From Balneolaceae bacterium (GTDB lineage Bacteria > Bacteroidota > Rhodothermia > Balneolales > Balneolaceae): 64,000 bases of DNA. Position 1 is the stretch's first letter; every line of letters starts with the position of its first letter. The notes below the pieces were generated by a model that was given only the letters and a program-made list of their open reading frames with translations, was not told the origin of the DNA and made no database searches. The position numbers and the translations under genes are program-made. Positions 27,007-58,251 of the stretch are shown piece by piece. Location: positions 186,001 to 250,000 of the forward strand of contig JAEPNO010000003.1 of NCBI GenBank assembly GCA_017643365.1, in the 5' to 3' direction.

Positions 27007-27058
27007 ATCCCTGCCAAACCTACGCCAAGAGGCTTCTGTTCGCATGCTCCGCAGGGAT
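27007..27058. repeat. Inverted repeat ATCCCTGC ... GCAGGGAT with island-like core
   Basis: An 8-bp stem encloses 36 bases. The inside, read on the - strand, has GAAGCCTCTTGGCGTAGG, close to the core of the elements in the accessory island (GAAGCCTTTGGCGTAGG at 51721). So that core is not limited to the island. The rest of 26795-27237 shows nothing else. Confidence 0.6.
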
Positions 27059-49083: not shown

Positions 49084-50856
49084 TTAACGAAGTAGGCGAC
49101 TTCTATTGTCTATGATGTCGGCATCGTCTTTAAGCTGATCTAACCAAACTGCAAGGTACTTTTGGTTGATTTGCTGCTCAAGTTCAGCGCGAATAGAGGA
49201 AGCGGTTGCGTCATCTAAGGTATTTGGTGCTGGCTCGCTAATTGAGTTTACATAAATCACATAAGCACCATTTACACCTTCGATAGCCGGACTTAGTTGA
49301 TTTGCTTGCATCGCAAATACGCTACCAATTACTTTAGGCTCGCGTCCGGCACCGGTAAGCACCATTGCAGAAGCTGCAAGTCCATCTACATTTTGAATGT
49401 CTTTTCCGGAAGCGGCGCTCAACGACTCCAGGTCGCCATTAGCTGCAATCATAGCCTGTACTTTTTCAACAGTGATACTTTTACGCTTTTCGTTTTTAAC
49501 CTGAGTTTCGATCTGCCCACGCACTTCATCCATCGGGCGGTAACCGGCTTCGTTTACTTCGGTTAGTCGAATGATCACGAATTGTGTAGCCAATTCGATA
49601 GGATCAGAAATATCGCCTTCATCTGATGTTTCAAGGAAGTTCAATACTTGCTGGCTAGATCCAACACCGGAAACAAAGGTGTTTCCTTTAGTTGCAAAAG
49701 CTTCCTGAATAAGTAATCCGGAGCGATTAGCTTCTTCATCGAACGAACTTTCTTCGGTAGCAAAATACAAGAATTCATCGGCTGCTTCGAAAGCACCATC
49801 CACGGTAGATGGCAATGCCTCGAACGCCAGCGACATAACAGCGAACTTAATTTCGTCTCTGGTTTCTTCTACGTTTTTGATGATCGCAGCACTCGTACCA
49901 AGATTAATGATACCGGTTACTTCACCTTCTTCCACATCCAACACAGGCGCGTAATCTTCGCGGATTTCATCTTTCTGCACAAATACGTTGTTGTATCGCG
50001 TAGTTGACTGGTTGCGGATTAAGAATAACGAATCGTTTTCGGCAGCGGCAAAGTCTTCGCGTAATTCTTCCAATTCCTTGCGGATGGTGGCAGAATCTTC
50101 AGCCGTAGGCAGCGTAGAAAATGTTACGAACTGAGCACGGTAGCTTTCTTCCGTTTTAAAGAGCTCTTTATTTTCGTTGTAGTAAGTTCGTACATCGGCA
50201 TCAGTGATCTCAATTTCAGCATCGGTTACTTCGCTGTAAGGAAAACGCAGATAGCTTACGCTTGCAAATGAGTTTCTTTTGTTGAACTCTTCGATCACTT
50301 GCTGGTCGGTTACTTGTAAACCCGCTGTAATAAAATTGCTGAGTTTTTCCTGGCGACGCTTTTGGCGAAGCTGAATTTCGATGGCCAACGCTTCTTGAGA
50401 GTAAGTTGGATCGGTAAGTACGTTTTGGATTGCAAAACGATCAACGGTTCCATCCGGGCGACTAAAGTATTGCATGATCAGCGGATCTGGATTATCACCA
50501 TAAGCCATGCTCAGTAATTCAGAATCGGTAACTGTGATTCCGAGTTCGTCCATTTTTTGCTCAAGTAGCTTTGCGCTTACCAGCTCGTCCCACACCTGAT
50601 TTTCGTAAATCGCACGGATTTCAGGAGTCATTGCAGCGCCTGATTGTTGAGAATACGCGTTGGTGTAATATTGCACACGGCTGTTGTATTCATCTAAGCT
50701 GATGGGCTCGCCGTTAACTTCGCCCAAATCGCGGGGTCCCATAGTTGCTACATTGGGATCGTACACATCCATGATCACCCAAAGCAATCCAAAAGAACCA
50801 ATTAATATCCATAAGATAATACCTGTATTATCTCGAAATTTCGTCATTACACCCAT
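49084..50856 (-). CDS. ppiD: PpiD-like membrane-anchored periplasmic chaperone/peptidyl-prolyl isomerase
   Basis: A 590-residue protein with one N-terminal membrane segment (IILWILIGSFGLLWVIMDVY) and a SurA/PpiD chaperone domain (GEVNGEPISLDEYNSRVQ, then helices to about 170). The middle region resembles a parvulin fold but lacks a clear active-site motif, so it may act only as a chaperone for outer-membrane proteins. It is alone in its transcript and ends the housekeeping part before the accessory island. Confidence 0.85.
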   Translation of the reverse strand: MGVMTKFRDNTGIILWILIGSFGLLWVIMDVYDPNVATMGPRDLGEVNGEPISLDEYNSRVQYYTNAYSQQSGAAMTPEIRAIYENQVWDELVSAKLLEQKMDELGITVTDSELLSMAYGDNPDPLIMQYFSRPDGTVDRFAIQNVLTDPTYSQEALAIEIQLRQKRRQEKLSNFITAGLQVTDQQVIEEFNKRNSFASVSYLRFPYSEVTDAEIEITDADVRTYYNENKELFKTEESYRAQFVTFSTLPTAEDSATIRKELEELREDFAAAENDSLFLIRNQSTTRYNNVFVQKDEIREDYAPVLDVEEGEVTGIINLGTSAAIIKNVEETRDEIKFAVMSLAFEALPSTVDGAFEAADEFLYFATEESSFDEEANRSGLLIQEAFATKGNTFVSGVGSSQQVLNFLETSDEGDISDPIELATQFVIIRLTEVNEAGYRPMDEVRGQIETQVKNEKRKSITVEKVQAMIAANGDLESLSAASGKDIQNVDGLAASAMVLTGAGREPKVIGSVFAMQANQLSPAIEGVNGAYVIYVNSISEPAPNTLDDATASSIRAELEQQINQKYLAVWLDQLKDDADIIDNRSRLLR

Positions 50857-51765
50857 AACAGGTAGCCTCTAGCTTGTACTTAAAATAGTTATTGTTTTTC
50901 TATTGTCTCGTCGAGCCACTTCACCCGATAATCGAGCCTGACAATATACGCCTCTATACAAGTAATTGAAAGGGCGGAGTTGGAATGAACTTTGAATGAG
51001 AACATGGACTGCTGAACTTCGAATATTGAACTTTATTCGTTACCTCACCTTGGAGCTTTACTCAAGGTGAGGGAATTCAGTATCTCGTTTCGAACCACCG
51101 GTTCAAATTTTATTTACGTGATCCCGCTGGTTTATTTTCGCCACCTCACCCCGACCCTCTCCTCAAGGAGAGGGAGATTAATTAAAAAAGTCATTCTGAT
51201 CCTTCGGCTGGCGGTGAAGAATCTGCACAACTTTGAATTAGGAAAAATTTGCTATCGATTTCCATTCACAAGCGGAGCGAAGTGATCTGAGTTTTTCTGA
51301 CTTCATTCTATTTCTCCCTATTCAACGGATGCGGGACTAAAGTCACAGCCTGCCTACCGAAGTTTTAAACGTAGGTTGGCTTAATTATGTACGTGCTTTA
51401 ATCTCGAACATAAACAAGCAAGGGTTTTAACCCTGCGTTTTCACGAAGAGAAATAATTTTAGATTCTTGATTCAATATTCGGCTAAATGCTTCCATTCAC
51501 GAGCGGAGCGACGTGATCTCAGTTTTTTCAAATCGTAACAGAGATTGCGTCGTCGCAAGCTCCTCGCAAATGTCCTCGTTCGGAATACCTTTTCTCATCA
51601 ATAATTCTAATGCCTTTTTTGAAGTAAACGAGCGAATAACGCCATAAACTTTAAGCTTGTGAGCAATAAAATAAATCAGTTACTTCAATTATAAACTAGA
51701 ACCTGTGCCGCATGTCTACCGAAGCCTTTGGCGTAGGTTGGCTTAAACGCGGGGTCGTTATACAA
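50857..51765. repeat. 909-bp repeat block left of the accessory island
   Basis: No gene is supported. It holds segments that recur at 54301-55160: X (about 51119-51280; CACCCCGACCCTCTCCTCAA, CTGCACAACTTTGAATTAGG), Y (about 51308-51490; GCGGGACTAAAGTCACAGCC, AGCAAGGGTTTTAACCCTGC) and Z (about 51490-51700; GAGATTGCGTCGTCGCAAGC). The order here is X-Y-Z; at 54.5 kb it is Y-X-Z. A small palindrome GAACCACCGGTTC is at 51092-51104. Confidence 0.85.
51694..51763 (+). repeat. attC-like element 1 (before 51766)
   Basis: Contains CTACCGAAGCC, GCGTAGGTTGGCTTAAACGC and ends GTCGTTATAC; the next gene starts three bases later. The 5' AAC box is poor here (ATAAACT). It is one of four related elements in the island, and the core stem CTACC..GTAGG is preserved. 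Confidence 0.55.
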
Positions 51766-52191
51766 ATGAACAAACAACGTATTTGCTTAATTTTAACATC
51801 AGTTTTTATCTGGAGTTGTAGTCATTCTTTAAGTAAAGATGATATTGTCTCAATTTTTGAAAAAGAAGAATTCACACAAATGCACGAGACAGTTTTAGAT
51901 AATAAAGTAGCTCTTTTAGCTTTTTCAAATGACAGTTCTGGTGTTTCAATAGATTTGAAATCGAATATTAGTCCTCACTTAAAAAAGCTAATGGTAAATT
52001 TAACGATTGAACGAATTGATCTCTTACCAGTATCAGACAGAATTACTTATGTGTTCTATCAAGATTGGGAAAGTTTTCAAGTTATTGAATATGTTCCCGC
52101 TGATAGTTCATATTTCAATGAAAGCGAATCAAAAGATTTCTATGAGATTCAGGAATTAGGGAATCATTTTTATTACCATGCTTTTTATTAA
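51766..52191 (+). CDS. Hypothetical lipoprotein (island gene 1)
   Basis: About 141 residues with a lipobox (VFIWSC, Cys18) in MNKQRICLILTSVFIWSC. The mature part is unrecognised. The start at 51766 opens the signal peptide; an earlier ATG at 51712 would run through the repeat element. It starts directly after the attC-like element and is followed by GCATAACAAG seven bases after its stop. Confidence 0.7.
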   Translation: MNKQRICLILTSVFIWSCSHSLSKDDIVSIFEKEEFTQMHETVLDNKVALLAFSNDSSGVSIDLKSNISPHLKKLMVNLTIERIDLLPVSDRITYVFYQDWESFQVIEYVPADSSYFNESESKDFYEIQELGNHFYYHAFY

Positions 52192-52197
52192 TCTTTG

Positions 52198-52237
52198 CAT
52201 AACAAGTGCTATTTACGGACACGAACGCAGTTAGAAT
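52198..52237 (+). repeat. Possible short attC-like site after island gene 1
   Basis: GCATAACAAGTGC opens and GCAGTTAGAATC closes the site. TAAC pairs with GTTA and TGC with GCA. It is shorter than typical attC sites and less like the other elements here. GCGTAACAAG occurs at the same place after the last island gene (57216). Confidence 0.4.
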
Positions 52238-52305
52238 CTATAATTTAATAACCAGACTCACCTAGAACTACACCACCTAAATCGAATTCTAAAACAGGAG
52301 AAGTT

Positions 52306-52767
52306 ATGCGAATATTTCTAACAACCTTTTCACTTTGCATTCTTTTAACCTCTTGTGAAGTTTTTAATTCATCAAATTGTAATAAAGATTCTGAGTTGCC
52401 CGAAGCAATTAAGAAATGGCAGTCTACAAATACACAGAATTATACTTTCCAAACTAATCGAACGTGTGAATGCATGCCGCCGTACAAATATACTGTTGAG
52501 GTAGTAAACGGCGAAGTTACTGATGTGCATTTCGAGAAAGAGGATCATCTTAATTACGAAAGTAAAGCAATGATTATTCAATCTTCCAAGACTATCGATC
52601 AACTATTTGACATTTTGGGGCAGTATGAAAACACTGCGGATTATTTCGAAGTAACATTTCATGAAATATTTGGATATCCGACAAAGATTAATATTGATCC
52701 AAATCCAGAAACCGCAGATGAAGAAATCATTCTTGAAATCTCAAAATTCACTTCTATAAATAATTAA
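52306..52767 (+). CDS. DUF6174-like lipoprotein (island gene 2)
   Basis: A 153-residue lipoprotein (LCILLTSC, lipid Cys17). The pattern QNYTFQTNRTCECMPPYKYT, VVNGEVTDV and GYPTKINIDPNPETADEE resembles the DUF6174 family of small secreted proteins with unknown role. It is on the + strand like the rest of the island. Confidence 0.7.
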   Translation: MRIFLTTFSLCILLTSCEVFNSSNCNKDSELPEAIKKWQSTNTQNYTFQTNRTCECMPPYKYTVEVVNGEVTDVHFEKEDHLNYESKAMIIQSSKTIDQLFDILGQYENTADYFEVTFHEIFGYPTKINIDPNPETADEEIILEISKFTSINN

Positions 52768-52808
52768 ATATTTTAGATTTGCACGGTAAAATTCTGATGC
52801 GTTAATTC

Positions 52809-52885
52809 TACAAAGAACTGACTGATTGCCCCGTTATTCTACTGAAGCCTCAGATATAATCTGACTTAAAATAGAGGTTTCATAA
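52809..52885 (+). repeat. Degenerate attC-like element 2 (before island gene 3)
   Basis: ACAAAGAACTG, TTCTACTGAAGCCT and TGACTTAAAATAGAGG follow the order seen in the element at 55059-55128 (ACAAAGAACTG, GTCTACCGAAGCCT, TTGGCTTAAACGCAGAG). The 3' GTTA box is lost. So a related element also precedes the third gene. Confidence 0.5.
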
Positions 52886-53010
52886 TTGCTGCTGGTGAAC
52901 GATCAGGAAATCGTTTATTTGAAATGGTAAAAATGATGCAGATAGAAGCCGGTCTGGGAAAAAGAGGCTTATTGATAATGATCAACACAAACAGAACGCT
53001 GAGCACACCA

Positions 53011-53556
53011 ATGAAATCAAATGAAAAACAAATGCATAGATTGAGGGAAATAGGCGCACTAGTACTGCTTTTATTAGTTCCAATATCATTTGCTCATGCC
53101 CAGCAAACAGAAAAAGATTCTGTTAATCTTGATATTGGCTGGGGCACTTTTGGCTTAGGTATTGATAGTCCTTTAGACCTTGGGTACGGTTTCTCAGCAA
53201 ACATTGGTCGTAATCATTTTTGGCAGCTTGGTTTTCAAAATAGTTCAGAGCTTTCATTTGGAGGAAGCGGTGCACAAGTAAATATGTTTCATGTAGGTAA
53301 AGGATATTCGCTTGTTAATAGGGTTGGACGAATAGCCCTTGCTGCCGGTCCTGCTTTTGTGTGGGGCACAGATCATTTTGATAGCAATACCGGAACCTAT
53401 GATAATTTTACCGCCCTCGGATTAACTCTAAATGGGCAAGCATTTGTTACTCCAATCAAAGAGATCGGAATAGGTGTTGAAGTGTTTTATAACATCAATA
53501 ACACAATAAATGTAGCCGGCTTCAGAATCATCTTTGGACTTGAAGGCTTCAAATAA
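53011..53556 (+). CDS. Putative outer-membrane protein (island gene 3)
   Basis: About 181 residues with a signal peptide ending AHAQ. The mature part has barrel-like strands (GYGFSANIGRNHFWQLGFQN, IGIGVEVFYNINNTINVAGF). The start may be 53011 or 53032; an ATG at 52924 would add 29 residues with no signal-like character. No family recognised. Confidence 0.6.
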   Translation: MKSNEKQMHRLREIGALVLLLLVPISFAHAQQTEKDSVNLDIGWGTFGLGIDSPLDLGYGFSANIGRNHFWQLGFQNSSELSFGGSGAQVNMFHVGKGYSLVNRVGRIALAAGPAFVWGTDHFDSNTGTYDNFTALGLTLNGQAFVTPIKEIGIGVEVFYNINNTINVAGFRIIFGLEGFK

Positions 53557-53970
53557 CGGGTAGAAAAAAGCATTTTTCATACGTTCCACACTACTGGTTC
53601 ACGTAAACCAATTTACTTTTCAACTCCATCTGAATTGTTCCGCATGCAATCCATTCATTTTGACCCCTCTCTGTCTCTTCCCTATATGTAGGGGAGAGGA
53701 CTTCTAAATAAAATTCTGATCTCGTTTTTTAAAATCACGAGCTCCATACAATGAATGTTGATACATCAATCTTCCATTTAAGATTCTTTGTGCCACTTAT
53801 TCGTTTGGTTCATCTCCGCCAGCTGGCGGATCTGGATGACCTTATCTTTTAAATAACTTCTGTGCCCCAATGTCGGACCCTGAGCTTCTGAGAACTAAAT
53901 GTATTCGCTTTCTTTTAATTGATGAAAATTCTTTTCAAGTTATTTATACCAAAACTTAGCTATCTAGAAA
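53557..53970. other. 414-bp spacer with short palindromes
   Basis: No gene is seen. A 16-bp palindrome TCCGCCAGCTGGCGGA lies at 53815-53830 inside ATCTCCGCC...TGGATG, and a CCCTCTC/GAGAGG word pair near 53671-53700. These resemble the small palindromes in the repeat blocks on either side. Confidence 0.6.
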
Positions 53971-54300
53971 ATGCCAATCGCTCATTGCATTGTTACTAAA
54001 GATTGTGTCCCTGGCTCAATTAATGTTATTGAACTTTGGGCTGCCGCCTCGGGCGTATCAGCCGAACACATGACTATCAACTTTATTACAAGTAGTGACC
54101 AAGTTGGAAAAGGTTACAAAGTGATGGCTACATTACTGCTTCCTTCCATTTGGAAGCCCGCCATGATTTCTTCTCTTCAAATTGGATTAGCAGAAGCATT
54201 GTCGAAATACATTAGTCTTAGTGTGGAGGATGTTCACGTAATTACCAACATCATAGATTCGGGGATGGTTGTAGAGAATGGGCAGGAAATTACTTGGTGA
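53971..54300 (+). CDS. Tautomerase/MIF-like small protein (island gene 4)
   Basis: A 109-residue protein starting MPIAHCIV; in tautomerases Pro1 (after Met removal) is the catalytic base. The pattern ITSSDQVGKGYKVMATLLLP, LQIGLAEALSKYISLSVEDVHVIT and GMVVENGQEITW fits the 4-OT/MIF fold in length. The substrate is unknown. It is on the + strand of the island and has no attC-like element directly upstream. Confidence 0.5.
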   Translation: MPIAHCIVTKDCVPGSINVIELWAAASGVSAEHMTINFITSSDQVGKGYKVMATLLLPSIWKPAMISSLQIGLAEALSKYISLSVEDVHVITNIIDSGMVVENGQEITW

Positions 54301-55058
54301 GTGGTTGTTATATGACTTTTCCCTCGTTACGAACTACCGATCAACCATTCCCCTCGTAACGAACCACTGGTTCGTTATGCCTTTTTGAACCACTGGTTCA
54401 TGCGCTCTCTTTGTACTTTTGGCTTGACCATATGAATGCCGATTAATCATTCTCGAGTGAAGCTACGTAGTATGTTCAATCTAGATTAATCTAAACTTTA
54501 TTATTTCTCCCTATTTAACTGATGCGGGACTAAAGTCACAGCCTGCCTACCGAAGTTTTAAACGTAGGTTGGCTTGATTATGTACGTGCTTTAATCTCGA
54601 ACATAAACAAGCAAGGGTTTTAACCCTGCGTTTTCACGGTGAGAAATAATTTTAGATTCTTGATTCAATATTCGGCTAAATGCTTCCATTCACGATCCCG
54701 CTGGTTTATTTTCACCACCTCACCCCGACCCTCTCCTCAAGGAGAGGGAGCTTAATTAATAAACGTATACCAGTTATTTAAAAAAGTCATTCTGATCCGC
54801 CAACCGGCGGTAAAGAATCTGCACAACTTTGAATTAGGAAAAATTTACTATCGATTTCCATTCACGAGCGAAGCGAAGTGATCTCAGTGTTTACAACTCG
54901 TAGCTGAGATTGCGTCGTCGCAAGCTCCTCGCAAATGTCCTCGTTCGGAATACCTTTTCTCATCAATAATTCTAATGTCTTTTTTGAAGTAAACGAACTT
55001 TTAAAACCAAAAACTTTAAGCTTGTGAGCAATAAAATAAATTAGTTACTTCAATTAAA
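54301..55058. repeat. Repeat block right of the first island part (Y-X-Z order)
   Basis: Segments Y (about 54502-54690), X (about 54690-54870) and Z (about 54870-55058) repeat those at 50857-51765, but in a different order. Two palindromes at the left are GAACCACTGGTTC based (54357-54377 and 54386-54400). No gene is supported. Confidence 0.85.
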
Positions 55059-55128
55059 AACAAAGAACTGCCCTGCCTGTCTACCGAAGCCTTTTGTGTA
55101 GGTTGGCTTAAACGCAGAGTCGTTAGAT
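55059..55128 (+). repeat. attC-like element 3 (before 55161)
   Basis: AAC-AAAGAA-CTGC opens the site and GCAG-AGTC-GTTAGAT closes it, so AAC pairs with GTT and CTGC with GCAG with four- to six-base spacers, as in R and L boxes of attC sites. GTTAGAT fits GTTRRRY. The inner part is CTACCGAAGCC..TGTAGGTTGGCTTAAAC. This is the best-formed copy. Confidence 0.6.
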
Positions 55129-55160
55129 TTTATATTAAGCACTAAAATTACTTTCGAATT

Positions 55161-56201
55161 ATGGGATTTCTTGACTTCCTTTTTAAAAGAAAGAATAAAA
55201 ATAAAACTCAAGGAAACCCTGAAGGGAAGATTAATCCTAGTAAAGAAACTTCACTTGCTATAAAAGGGATTGATGTTCATCCCGAAATAAGAGATTTATT
55301 ATGGATAGGTGAAGGATATTTTAAGAATTATAGCCAAGAAGCAAACAACAAAACAGAGTTCGAAATTGATGGAATTCTGTTTACTATATCATTTTATGGT
55401 AGTGAAGAACCAAGCCTTATTTACCCAAGCCAAAGAGTTACCAAATCAAATATTACTCAAGTTGAAAGGCCACCCTATTATCCGACCTATTCTGGATTGT
55501 CTCCTGCTCAGAAATGGGTCTATGCAAATCTGCTCTCTAACCCCTACAATCCTGAAATAAATATAGGTTTTGTCTTCATTCTCTATTATGGTTTAGAACG
55601 TCATCTTTTGCTCGGAAATTTTGAACAAGCATTTGAAGTAATTCTAAAATTAAGAGACGTCCATTCTAATTCGTCCTTTCAATCGTATTCAGCAAAAGCA
55701 TTAATTTTGTCATGTATACTTCATAAGAGGCCGGATTTGATACTGAGGTTTATAGATTCATTGGACAAAGATCATGAGTTCAATTTTTCAGACAATCTTT
55801 TTCTTCTTTGTTGCTACAGCTTTAACATTCCCATACCGCCATTTCAGTTAATGAAAATGTCAAAAAGTTTTGATCACTCAAATCAGAATTACATAAAAAA
55901 AGAACCTGAATTATTTGTAGCTAAAATTGAAGAAAATTTGAAAAGAGAATATGGAACAAAAGAATTAATATTAAAAGATTTATTGGAATCTAAGGGACTT
56001 CAGTCTATTAAAACGAAAAAGGAATTAATGTTTGCGAATGTCTCTATTCGTGATCAAGAAATCCCCGTCCCTCAAATCATTACAGAAAAATCTCTAAAAT
56101 CTGCTGTTCATCAAATTTTAAAGTCCGCCCATGAAGACGTTAAAAAGCACTTAGCTGAAATGAGAAAAGAAGCTAGAAAAAAAGCGAAAACTGATAACTA
56201 A
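55161..56201 (+). CDS. TerB_N-domain protein (island gene 5)
   Basis: A 346-residue soluble protein. The central part (about 105-200; GLSPAQKWVYANLLSNPY, GFVFILYYGLERHLLLGNFE) matches the TerB N-terminal domain (TerB_N), which is found in tellurite-resistance and phage-defence related proteins. The N-terminus is a short hydrophobic/basic region (MGFLDFLFKRKNKNK). The C-terminal part is helical and Lys-rich. No TerB C-terminal domain or partner Ter genes are seen. A defence role is possible. Confidence 0.65.
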   Translation: MGFLDFLFKRKNKNKTQGNPEGKINPSKETSLAIKGIDVHPEIRDLLWIGEGYFKNYSQEANNKTEFEIDGILFTISFYGSEEPSLIYPSQRVTKSNITQVERPPYYPTYSGLSPAQKWVYANLLSNPYNPEINIGFVFILYYGLERHLLLGNFEQAFEVILKLRDVHSNSSFQSYSAKALILSCILHKRPDLILRFIDSLDKDHEFNFSDNLFLLCCYSFNIPIPPFQLMKMSKSFDHSNQNYIKKEPELFVAKIEENLKREYGTKELILKDLLESKGLQSIKTKKELMFANVSIRDQEIPVPQIITEKSLKSAVHQILKSAHEDVKKHLAEMRKEARKKAKTDN

Positions 56202-56274
56202 TAAAATCATAAAGCATTTTCTCATGAGGATCTTCGACAAGCTGACTCCAAAGGGTTTGGAAATTATTCATAAT

Positions 56275-56350
56275 AACCAGAACTGCCACCTGTCAACCAA
56301 AGCTATGCATAAAGCGTAGATTGGCTTAAATACAGGGAGTGTCATGTAAC
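56275..56350 (+). repeat. attC-like element 4 (before 56369)
   Basis: AACCAGAACTGCC, CTGTCAACCAAAGC, GCGTAGATTGGCTTAAAT and ACAGGGAGTGTC keep the order of the element at 55059. The 3' box is altered (GTCATGTAAC, no GTTA). It lies between the TerB_N and DUF4062-like genes. Confidence 0.5.
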
Positions 56351-56368
56351 ACTTAATTACCCACAAAT

Positions 56369-57205
56369 ATGAGTTTTTCTGCAAAAGTTTTTAAAGTTTT
56401 TATCGCATCACCTTCTGATGTAGCAAATGAAAGAAATATCGTTAGAGCTGTACTGAATAGATGGAATGAAATAAATACAGAAAAATTTCAAATTGTACTT
56501 TTTCCTGTTGGCTGGGACACTCACTCTTCACCTGAAATAGGAAACCATCCACAAAAAATTATAAACAAAAAGATATTAAAAGACTGCGACTTATTAATAG
56601 GTGTCTTCTGGACTAGGTTTGGAACTCCAACCCATGAATATGATAGTGGAACTGAAGAAGAGATAGAGGAACATATAAAAACCGGTAAGCCTACAATGTT
56701 GTATTTTTCATCGCAACCTGTTGTTCCAGGTAGTTACAATCAAGAACAATTCGAAAAAGTTCAAGCGTTCAAAGAAAAATGTAAGACTCGTGGGATATTT
56801 GAACAATATTCTTCAATCGAAGAATTCCAAAAAAGTTTATCTGACCATATTCAAATCAAAATAAACACAGAGCCAATGTTCGACCTTCAGGAATCTATTC
56901 AATTAGAAAACCTTATCACGCCAGCTCAAGATGTTAAGAACCAATTAGGCGATGAAGCAAAAACATTGATAAAAGAGGCTTCACAAGATCGTAATGGAAG
57001 CATCATAATTATTAGAACAGCTGCTGGTAGAGTTATTCAAACAAATGGGAAAAACATGAATAATCAGAATAATCCTCGAATACGAGCACTTTGGGAAAAT
57101 GCAATGAAAGAAATAGAAAACTCTCAACTTATCGAAAGTGTAAATGCTAATCGTGAGATGTTCAAAGTAACAAAATTAGGCTATGAAGTTGCCGACTCTC
57201 TCTGA
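56369..57205 (+). CDS. DUF4062/TIR-like protein with winged-helix C-terminus (island gene 6)
   Basis: A 278-residue protein. The N-terminal 165 residues (VFIASPSDVANERNIV, KDCDLLIGVFWTRFGTPT, SGTEEEIEEHIKTGKPTMLYFS) fit the DUF4062/TIR-like Rossmann fold; a Glu pair in SGTEEEIE lies where TIR NADases hold catalytic Glu. The C-terminal part (about 225-278; RIRALWENAMKEIENSQLIE, FKVTKLGYEVADSL) looks like a winged helix. Such proteins occur in prokaryotic immunity and STAND-type systems. NAD cleavage is not shown. Confidence 0.7.
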   Translation: MSFSAKVFKVFIASPSDVANERNIVRAVLNRWNEINTEKFQIVLFPVGWDTHSSPEIGNHPQKIINKKILKDCDLLIGVFWTRFGTPTHEYDSGTEEEIEEHIKTGKPTMLYFSSQPVVPGSYNQEQFEKVQAFKEKCKTRGIFEQYSSIEEFQKSLSDHIQIKINTEPMFDLQESIQLENLITPAQDVKNQLGDEAKTLIKEASQDRNGSIIIIRTAAGRVIQTNGKNMNNQNNPRIRALWENAMKEIENSQLIESVNANREMFKVTKLGYEVADSL

Positions 57206-57212
57206 ATTTTTG

Positions 57213-57292
57213 CGTAACAAGCCACCCCAATAGCGATCTTCAACTAGCGGACTTCCTAACTTTGGCGCATTATTAGTTACCAGTTGTTAAAT
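57213..57292 (+). other. Possible terminal attC-like end of the island
   Basis: GCGTAACAAGCCACC begins about seven bases after the last island stop, like GCATAACAAG after island gene 1. No clear GTTRRRY partner is seen (TTAGTTACC is closest). It marks the right end of the accessory part before mlaD. Confidence 0.3.
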
Positions 57293-57321: not shown

Positions 57322-58251
57322 TTAAAAAATCTCGATTAGGCGCATGTGCTTCAGGTAGTCTTTCGGATTTTCCTGAATGTTCTGGATGAGTTCGTTTAGA
57401 TTGAATGTGAGGCTATCCAGATTATTGTACAATGATGGATCGTTCAGCATTTTTGACAACGTACCATCACCGGTATCCATTTTCGACAGGATGCTTTCCA
57501 GCGATTGCGACGATTGTTCTAAGCTGGCACTCAGTTCATCTAAATCGGCGCTGAAGGCTTCCAGATTAGAAAGTAGCGCACTCACATCTTCTGATGAAGA
57601 ATCACTGAGTGAACTCAGATTTTGCATGGTGGTGTTCGTGGCCACAATCATCGAGTCGATTTCATGCTTCCGTGAGGTAATCACATTCTCGAGCACTTCG
57701 CTAAACGACTTAAAATTAGAAACGGTAGACTTAATATCAGATGCCGCACCATTTTCGATCTCATTCATTCCTCTCAACAAATTGTTTACAAGATCGAGGG
57801 TTACTTGCACCGAATCGGCCATGGAGGCGCCTTCACTTGAAAATGCGTCTAAAATTCCGGTCTTCTTTTTACCGGGGATAAATCCTTCCCATTCTACAAT
57901 CTCCGAATTTCTGGATTTCATAATCTGAATGGTTGCCGAGCCGAGGAAGTCTGGCGAGGCCAAGAGTGCATACGAGCCTTTGGTAACTTGAATGGGCTCA
58001 GTGATGCTGATAACCACCAACACGCTATCTTCTTCGGGCAGATATTGCAACTGTCGAACACTGCCTACTTTAAAGCCTTTCATGTACACGCTACTTCCTC
58101 GAATCAACCCCTCTACGCTTTCATATTTGGTATTAAGGATATTGACACTCGAAAAAAGTGGTTCATCGCGCATAAATCGGAATCCGAAAAACGCAATGAT
58201 CGTAGCCGTTAACACTACAATACCTATTTTTAACTCGTTATTTAAATTCAT
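57322..58251 (-). CDS. mlaD: MCE-domain lipid transport protein MlaD
   Basis: A 309-residue protein with an N-terminal membrane segment (GIVVLTATIIAFFGFRF) and an MCE domain (about 38-115; VEGLIRGSSVYMKGFKVGSV), then a long helical, coiled-coil-like tail (about 140-285) longer than that of E. coli MlaD. It should move phospholipids between the membranes with MlaE and MlaF. Last gene of the three-gene operon. Confidence 0.9.
   Translation of the reverse strand: MNLNNELKIGIVVLTATIIAFFGFRFMRDEPLFSSVNILNTKYESVEGLIRGSSVYMKGFKVGSVRQLQYLPEEDSVLVVISITEPIQVTKGSYALLASPDFLGSATIQIMKSRNSEIVEWEGFIPGKKKTGILDAFSSEGASMADSVQVTLDLVNNLLRGMNEIENGAASDIKSTVSNFKSFSEVLENVITSRKHEIDSMIVATNTTMQNLSSLSDSSSEDVSALLSNLEAFSADLDELSASLEQSSQSLESILSKMDTGDGTLSKMLNDPSLYNNLDSLTFNLNELIQNIQENPKDYLKHMRLIEIF

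Follow-up and report, generated by a model that had tools for sequence, protein, structure and literature searches.

How six genes without a common theme came to stand on one strand between a ppiD/surA-like gene and mlaD, and whether integron recombination gathered them, are the questions raised by this locus. The window, meaning the whole 64,000-nucleotide stretch of the Balneolaceae bacterium assembly analyzed here, contains this island at approximately 51.1 to 57.3 kb (Table 1), where 6.46 kb separates the two flanking genes. The same MlaD-PpiD pair is adjacent, 138 to 164 bp apart, in five other genera (G026, G031, G035, G038, and G082), and none of the six island genes was found at the mlaD-ppiD junction of those genomes. 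The empty site was also sought in the sister species (G032), where the mlaD neighborhood is rearranged, and hence it is demonstrated in other genera only. The island is an insertion between flanking genes that are adjacent in relatives. The original prediction interpreted it as a CALIN, a cluster of attC sites lacking an integrase, and that interpretation was supported. Based on attC homology to integrase-linked sites, the absence of an integrase, the uninterrupted junction in relatives, and the occurrence of the same sites before accessory genes elsewhere in the genome, we consider it close to 90% probable that the island is a degraded CALIN, the fossil satellite of a chromosomal integron.

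Table 1. Features of the island and its flanks, with positions numbered from the first nucleotide of the window
Feature	Position	Strand	Remarks
Left flank, PpiD/SurA-like gene	49084..50856	-	MlaD neighbor in five other genera
Repeat block 1	51120..51760	+	Dispersed intergenic repeats (families D1-D4), type-A palindrome 51349-51382, a1 3' half
a1, attC 3' half with palindrome insert	51680..51763	+	5' half lost; R' GTTATAC 51757-51763
Palindrome insert GCATGTCTACCGAAGCCTTTGGCGTAGGTTG in a1	51710..51740	+	
c1, cassette gene	51766..52191	+	141 aa, no family
a2, near-full-length attC	52197..52309	+	R'' GCATAAC 52197-52203; R' GTTATGC 52303-52309
c2, cassette gene	52306..52767	+	DUF6174 lipoprotein-like protein
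a3, possible decayed attC	52790..52890	+	Score 33 vs. shuffle maximum 40
c3	52924..53556	+	Possible outer-membrane protein, no family
c4	53971..54300	+	109 aa, no family; 5' border without recognizable attC
Repeat block 2	54502..55125	+	Second type-A palindrome 54542-54575
a4, attC 3' half with palindrome insert	55040..55128	+	Insert about 55076-55105; R' GTTAGAT 55122-55128
c5, cassette gene	55161..56201	+	TerB_N domain, SngA-like
a5, attC with palindrome insert	56210..56352	+	Near full length, diverged
c6, cassette gene	56369..57205	+	DUF4062, resembles PDC-S60 N-terminus
a6, attC 5' half	57212..57290	+	R'' GCGTAAC 57212-57218; final site of the array
Right flank, MlaD-like (MCE) gene	57322..58251	-	

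The six unrelated plus-strand genes of the original prediction were confirmed as six same-strand ORFs (51766 to 57205), and no relatives of the c6 protein were found when it was queried against genome contigs. An attC site follows c1, c5, and c6, as it does the genes of the arrays on contigs C18 and C20 of the same genome, while c4 is followed by a 3' half only and no attC was recognizable after c2 or c3. In local alignments, a1, a2, and a4 scored above all 200 shuffles against the integrase-linked attC of relatives, and a5 and a6 did so against the genome's own attC. These five sites lie within 5.6 kb, and a CALIN is recognized by the clustering of at least two attC over a few kilobases. The R'' and R' boxes of a2 are perfectly complementary over 7 bp, its R' box contains the start codon of c2, and two copies of the attC 3' box CTTAAACGCnGGGTCGTTA are present in the window, compared with 0.04 expected. 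As predicted, GC[AG]TAAC motifs stand a few bases downstream of two stop codons, at a2 and a6. Related elements had been proposed before four of the genes; those preceding 51766, 55161, and 56369 are indeed related (repeat family D5), but the one preceding 52924 (a3) was not supported, since it did not score above shuffles. The gap between c3 and c4 did not do so either.

Beside Balneolaceae integrases, attC takes the form TATAACAAGGCGTTTTAAATCGGAC...GCGCCGTTTAAACGCTGGGTCGTTATA (21 sites aligned), with the R, L, and inner boxes paired in 95.8% of cells and 11 covarying pairs, compared with 26 to 44% pairing in slid structures. A covariance model built from the IntI-adjacent attC of relatives only (R1) recovered 4 to 32 sites in each of eight integrase-bearing genomes tested. 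Among six genomes without an integrase, four had no sites, and two to three were found in this genome and in G040. One of those in this genome is an intact attC (C20:26007-26144, 67.4 bits, E about 1e-12), and the array to which it belongs has the same elements as the window; a second match, on C50, was weak. With R1 as the model, the attC covariance check suggested alongside the original prediction succeeded at C20 but not in the window, where the best site, a4, reached 14.3 bits (E = 1), short of the threshold for attC structure. Folding of the elements, likewise suggested, gave bottom-strand structures for the window sites no better than those of shuffles, and an Rfam scan returned one tRNA only. 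A scan of our own for R and L boxes without sequence constraints was discarded, as it did not separate attC from shuffles. The sites of the window are eroded, with halves lost, and would probably fail a standard attC model. Because the R1 structure fails here and is present at C20 of the same genome, we refer to a degraded CALIN.

Genome-wide, the conserved attC 3' box GCTTAAACGCnGGGTCGTTA has 12 copies on seven contigs, versus none for the reversed control. For each of the 12, a same-strand ORF of 75 aa or more begins 4 to 115 bp downstream, an arrangement that has a probability of 0.43 at a random position. Full-length attC was recognizable on C7, C50, C51, and C20. Genes beside the boxes include UPF0175/DUF3368, HigBA, and ParDE-like pairs and an FRG protein; the toxin-antitoxin pairs and FRG protein among the C18 and C20 cassettes are typical cassette cargo. 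The FRG-domain cassette (PDC-S15 like; L050:9154-9764, contig C18) appears to be broken by a frameshift. The occurrence of attC at several loci is usual in the family, the single-contig genome G003 included. In several of the genome's own attC, the L'' part contains a 27-bp unit TTTCCCCATGGGGATCTTCGACAAGCG, present in three tandem copies on C49 (L048:70-160). A further repeat, TAACATCTTTAAAAAGG... (TAACATCTTTAAAAAGGACAATGTCAAGGGCACATAGTTTCCCC..), follows the last cassette on four contigs (C18:31771, C20:24853, C50:190594, and C51:115289). A possible terminal attC, this sequence nevertheless intrudes into a gene at C25:23189 and continues as a longer repeat; it was not found in the two other genomes of the genus.

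The CTACC..GTAGG hairpin singled out in the original prediction proved to be other than the attC fold. In seven sites (two on C20, one each on C49 and C18, and a1, a4, and a5 of the window), alignment of attC 3' halves revealed an approximately 31-bp palindrome, GCCTGTCTACCGAAGCCTTTGGCGTAGGTTG, that separates CTCGCC from GCTTAAACGC. It was absent from eight aligned attC, five from this genome and three from relatives, and the C18_2 site holds a different short insert. Given its presence in seven sites and its absence from the others, the hairpin reads as a species-specific insertion within the attC 3' half, either copied along with attC or acquired repeatedly, and not as the attC stem. Eleven further copies of the core, type-A or related, lie outside attC, bringing the total to about 18, and none was found in 28 relatives, sister species included. 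The caution originally attached to positions 27007 to 27058 was justified, as part of the palindrome, GAAGCCTCTTGGCGTAGGTT, lies there on the minus strand and is not accompanied by the attC 3' box.

These dispersed copies, together with the large direct repeats flanking c1 to c4, are what would be expected of a plain accessory island set between palindromic repeats, its resemblance to attC being fortuitous. However, what the sites contain beyond the palindrome, namely the 3' box with the L and R boxes, is common to palindrome-free, IntI-adjacent attC of other genera, and the 3' box, absent from the reversed control, always precedes genes. Chance resemblance is largely refuted by the integrase-linked homologs already, and we regard it as highly improbable.

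The direct repeats have a bearing on how the array arrived. Blocks 1 and 2, each of approximately 640 bp, are 89 to 97% identical in their parts, each ends in an attC half, and similar repeats occur beside the C18 array. These features would fit arrival of the cassettes within a larger mobile or duplicated segment, through a transposon or repeat-mediated rearrangement, and not through an integrase. Against this, no transposase gene or element ends were seen next to the island, and block 2 is internal to it, so that the blocks look like a duplication that followed arrival. We consider such a segment a tentative, less probable route; it is a variant compatible with the degraded CALIN.

Integron integrases are widespread in the family. 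Of 92 family genomes, 50 had an IntI match above the TIGR02249 cut-off, as did 85 of 296 genomes sampled across the phylum. No match above the cut-off was found anywhere in the 51-contig draft of this genome, so the genomic search for IntI and further copies proposed earlier yielded the 12 boxes and no integrase. The sister species retains an integron in the order LolD...hydrolase, glycosyltransferase, 326-aa protein, and glyoxalase, then IntI and cassettes, then oxidase, IcmF-like, and MscS-like genes. In our genome, the left flank through the glyoxalase gene lies on C18, where it is succeeded by approximately 0.9 kb of repeats and by attC and cassettes that run to the end of the contig. C49 opens with an attC and a single cassette, beyond which comes the right flank of the sister's integron. 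The stretch beside the glyoxalase gene, orthologous to the sister integron, is assembled and lacks intI. With no intI found there or elsewhere in the draft genome, the system does not qualify as a complete integron, which has a functional intI with attI.

A live integron, with intI hidden in an assembly gap or with another recombinase moving the cassettes, would be compatible with a draft genome in which C18, C20, and C49 end in arrays and a near-intact attC survives at C20. Yet the place where the sister keeps intI was assembled without it, and in other genomes intI was assembled even at contig ends. The best remaining IntI-like protein, a tyrosine recombinase on C44, was rejected as a hidden IntI, as it lacks the IntI-specific insertion. 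Since several of the 51 contigs end inside arrays, an intI in a gap retains a small residual probability, and we judge a live system improbable. The loss of IntI in this species is well supported. The sister IntI (L086:18333-19289, contig C11 of G032) reads HTFQHSF, with Gln in place of the HxxR Arg that the 89 other sampled IntI keep; this arginine is catalytic in tyrosine recombinases. Taken together with the loss of intI here, this substitution suggests that the genus is losing the system. The first cassette of the sister integron comprises an entire three-gene Zorya type II operon (ZorA-ZorB-ZorE) with an attC behind it (L086:15062-18011, contig C11 of G032).

We propose the following history for the degraded CALIN. 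An ancestor would have carried an IntI-driven integron between the glyoxalase/326-aa-protein cluster and the oxidase/IcmF cluster, as the sister retains. Cassettes, each comprising one accessory gene or toxin-antitoxin pair with one attC, may also have landed elsewhere, here at the mlaD/ppiD-like junction, whether through rearrangement or through IntI acting off target. The ancestral locus would then have lost its IntI. With recombination no longer selected, attC sites would have eroded through deletion of halves and mutation of R and L boxes, while dispersed repeats and the species-specific palindrome inserted into them and the genes stayed open. The array is probably immobile at present. Read in this way, the species pair offers a snapshot of integron death, one member having lost intI and the other bearing a mutation in the active site of its IntI, with cassettes and eroding attC still in place. 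The formation of a CALIN by integrase loss thereby becomes directly checkable, and the palindrome insertions provide a specific lead on attC invaders.

Integrons have been recorded for Bacteroidota in general (PMC8618304), and a complete one is found in Salinibacter ruber (PMC9024848). Our search of open-access papers found no literature on integrons in Balneolaceae, which, being limited to such papers, is weak evidence of novelty. The palindrome resembles REP sequences moved by TnpA-REP (PMC8266576) in being short, species-specific, and dispersed, within attC as well, and the genome has four Y1_Tnp matches (on C44, C22, and C33). Unlike REP, it is low in copy number, and no palindrome core was listed near the Y1_Tnp genes. 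A classic REP with a RAYT is not supported on these two grounds, although a REP-like origin is possible. That it is a mobile single-stranded DNA hairpin element, an unreported parasite that targets or spreads with attC and perhaps helped to silence the integron, seems unlikely. Compared with the sedentary chromosomal integrons of Balneolaceae (e.g., G032 and Balneolaceae bacterium CP030887.1), the attC families are homologous, and with the sister the integron locus itself is orthologous; these differ from our species in its lack of intI, and the sister in the residue substituted in its IntI. Among the closest counterparts is the CALIN as defined by IntegronFinder (PMC9024848; PMC8618304), with which the island shares clustered, attC-bordered accessory genes on one strand and no integrase nearby. 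It departs from that type in that its sites are eroded below model detection, several with a palindrome insert and dispersed repeats. The routes described for CALIN formation, namely off-target insertion, loss of intI, and rearrangement (PMC8618304), fit the evidence for the island.
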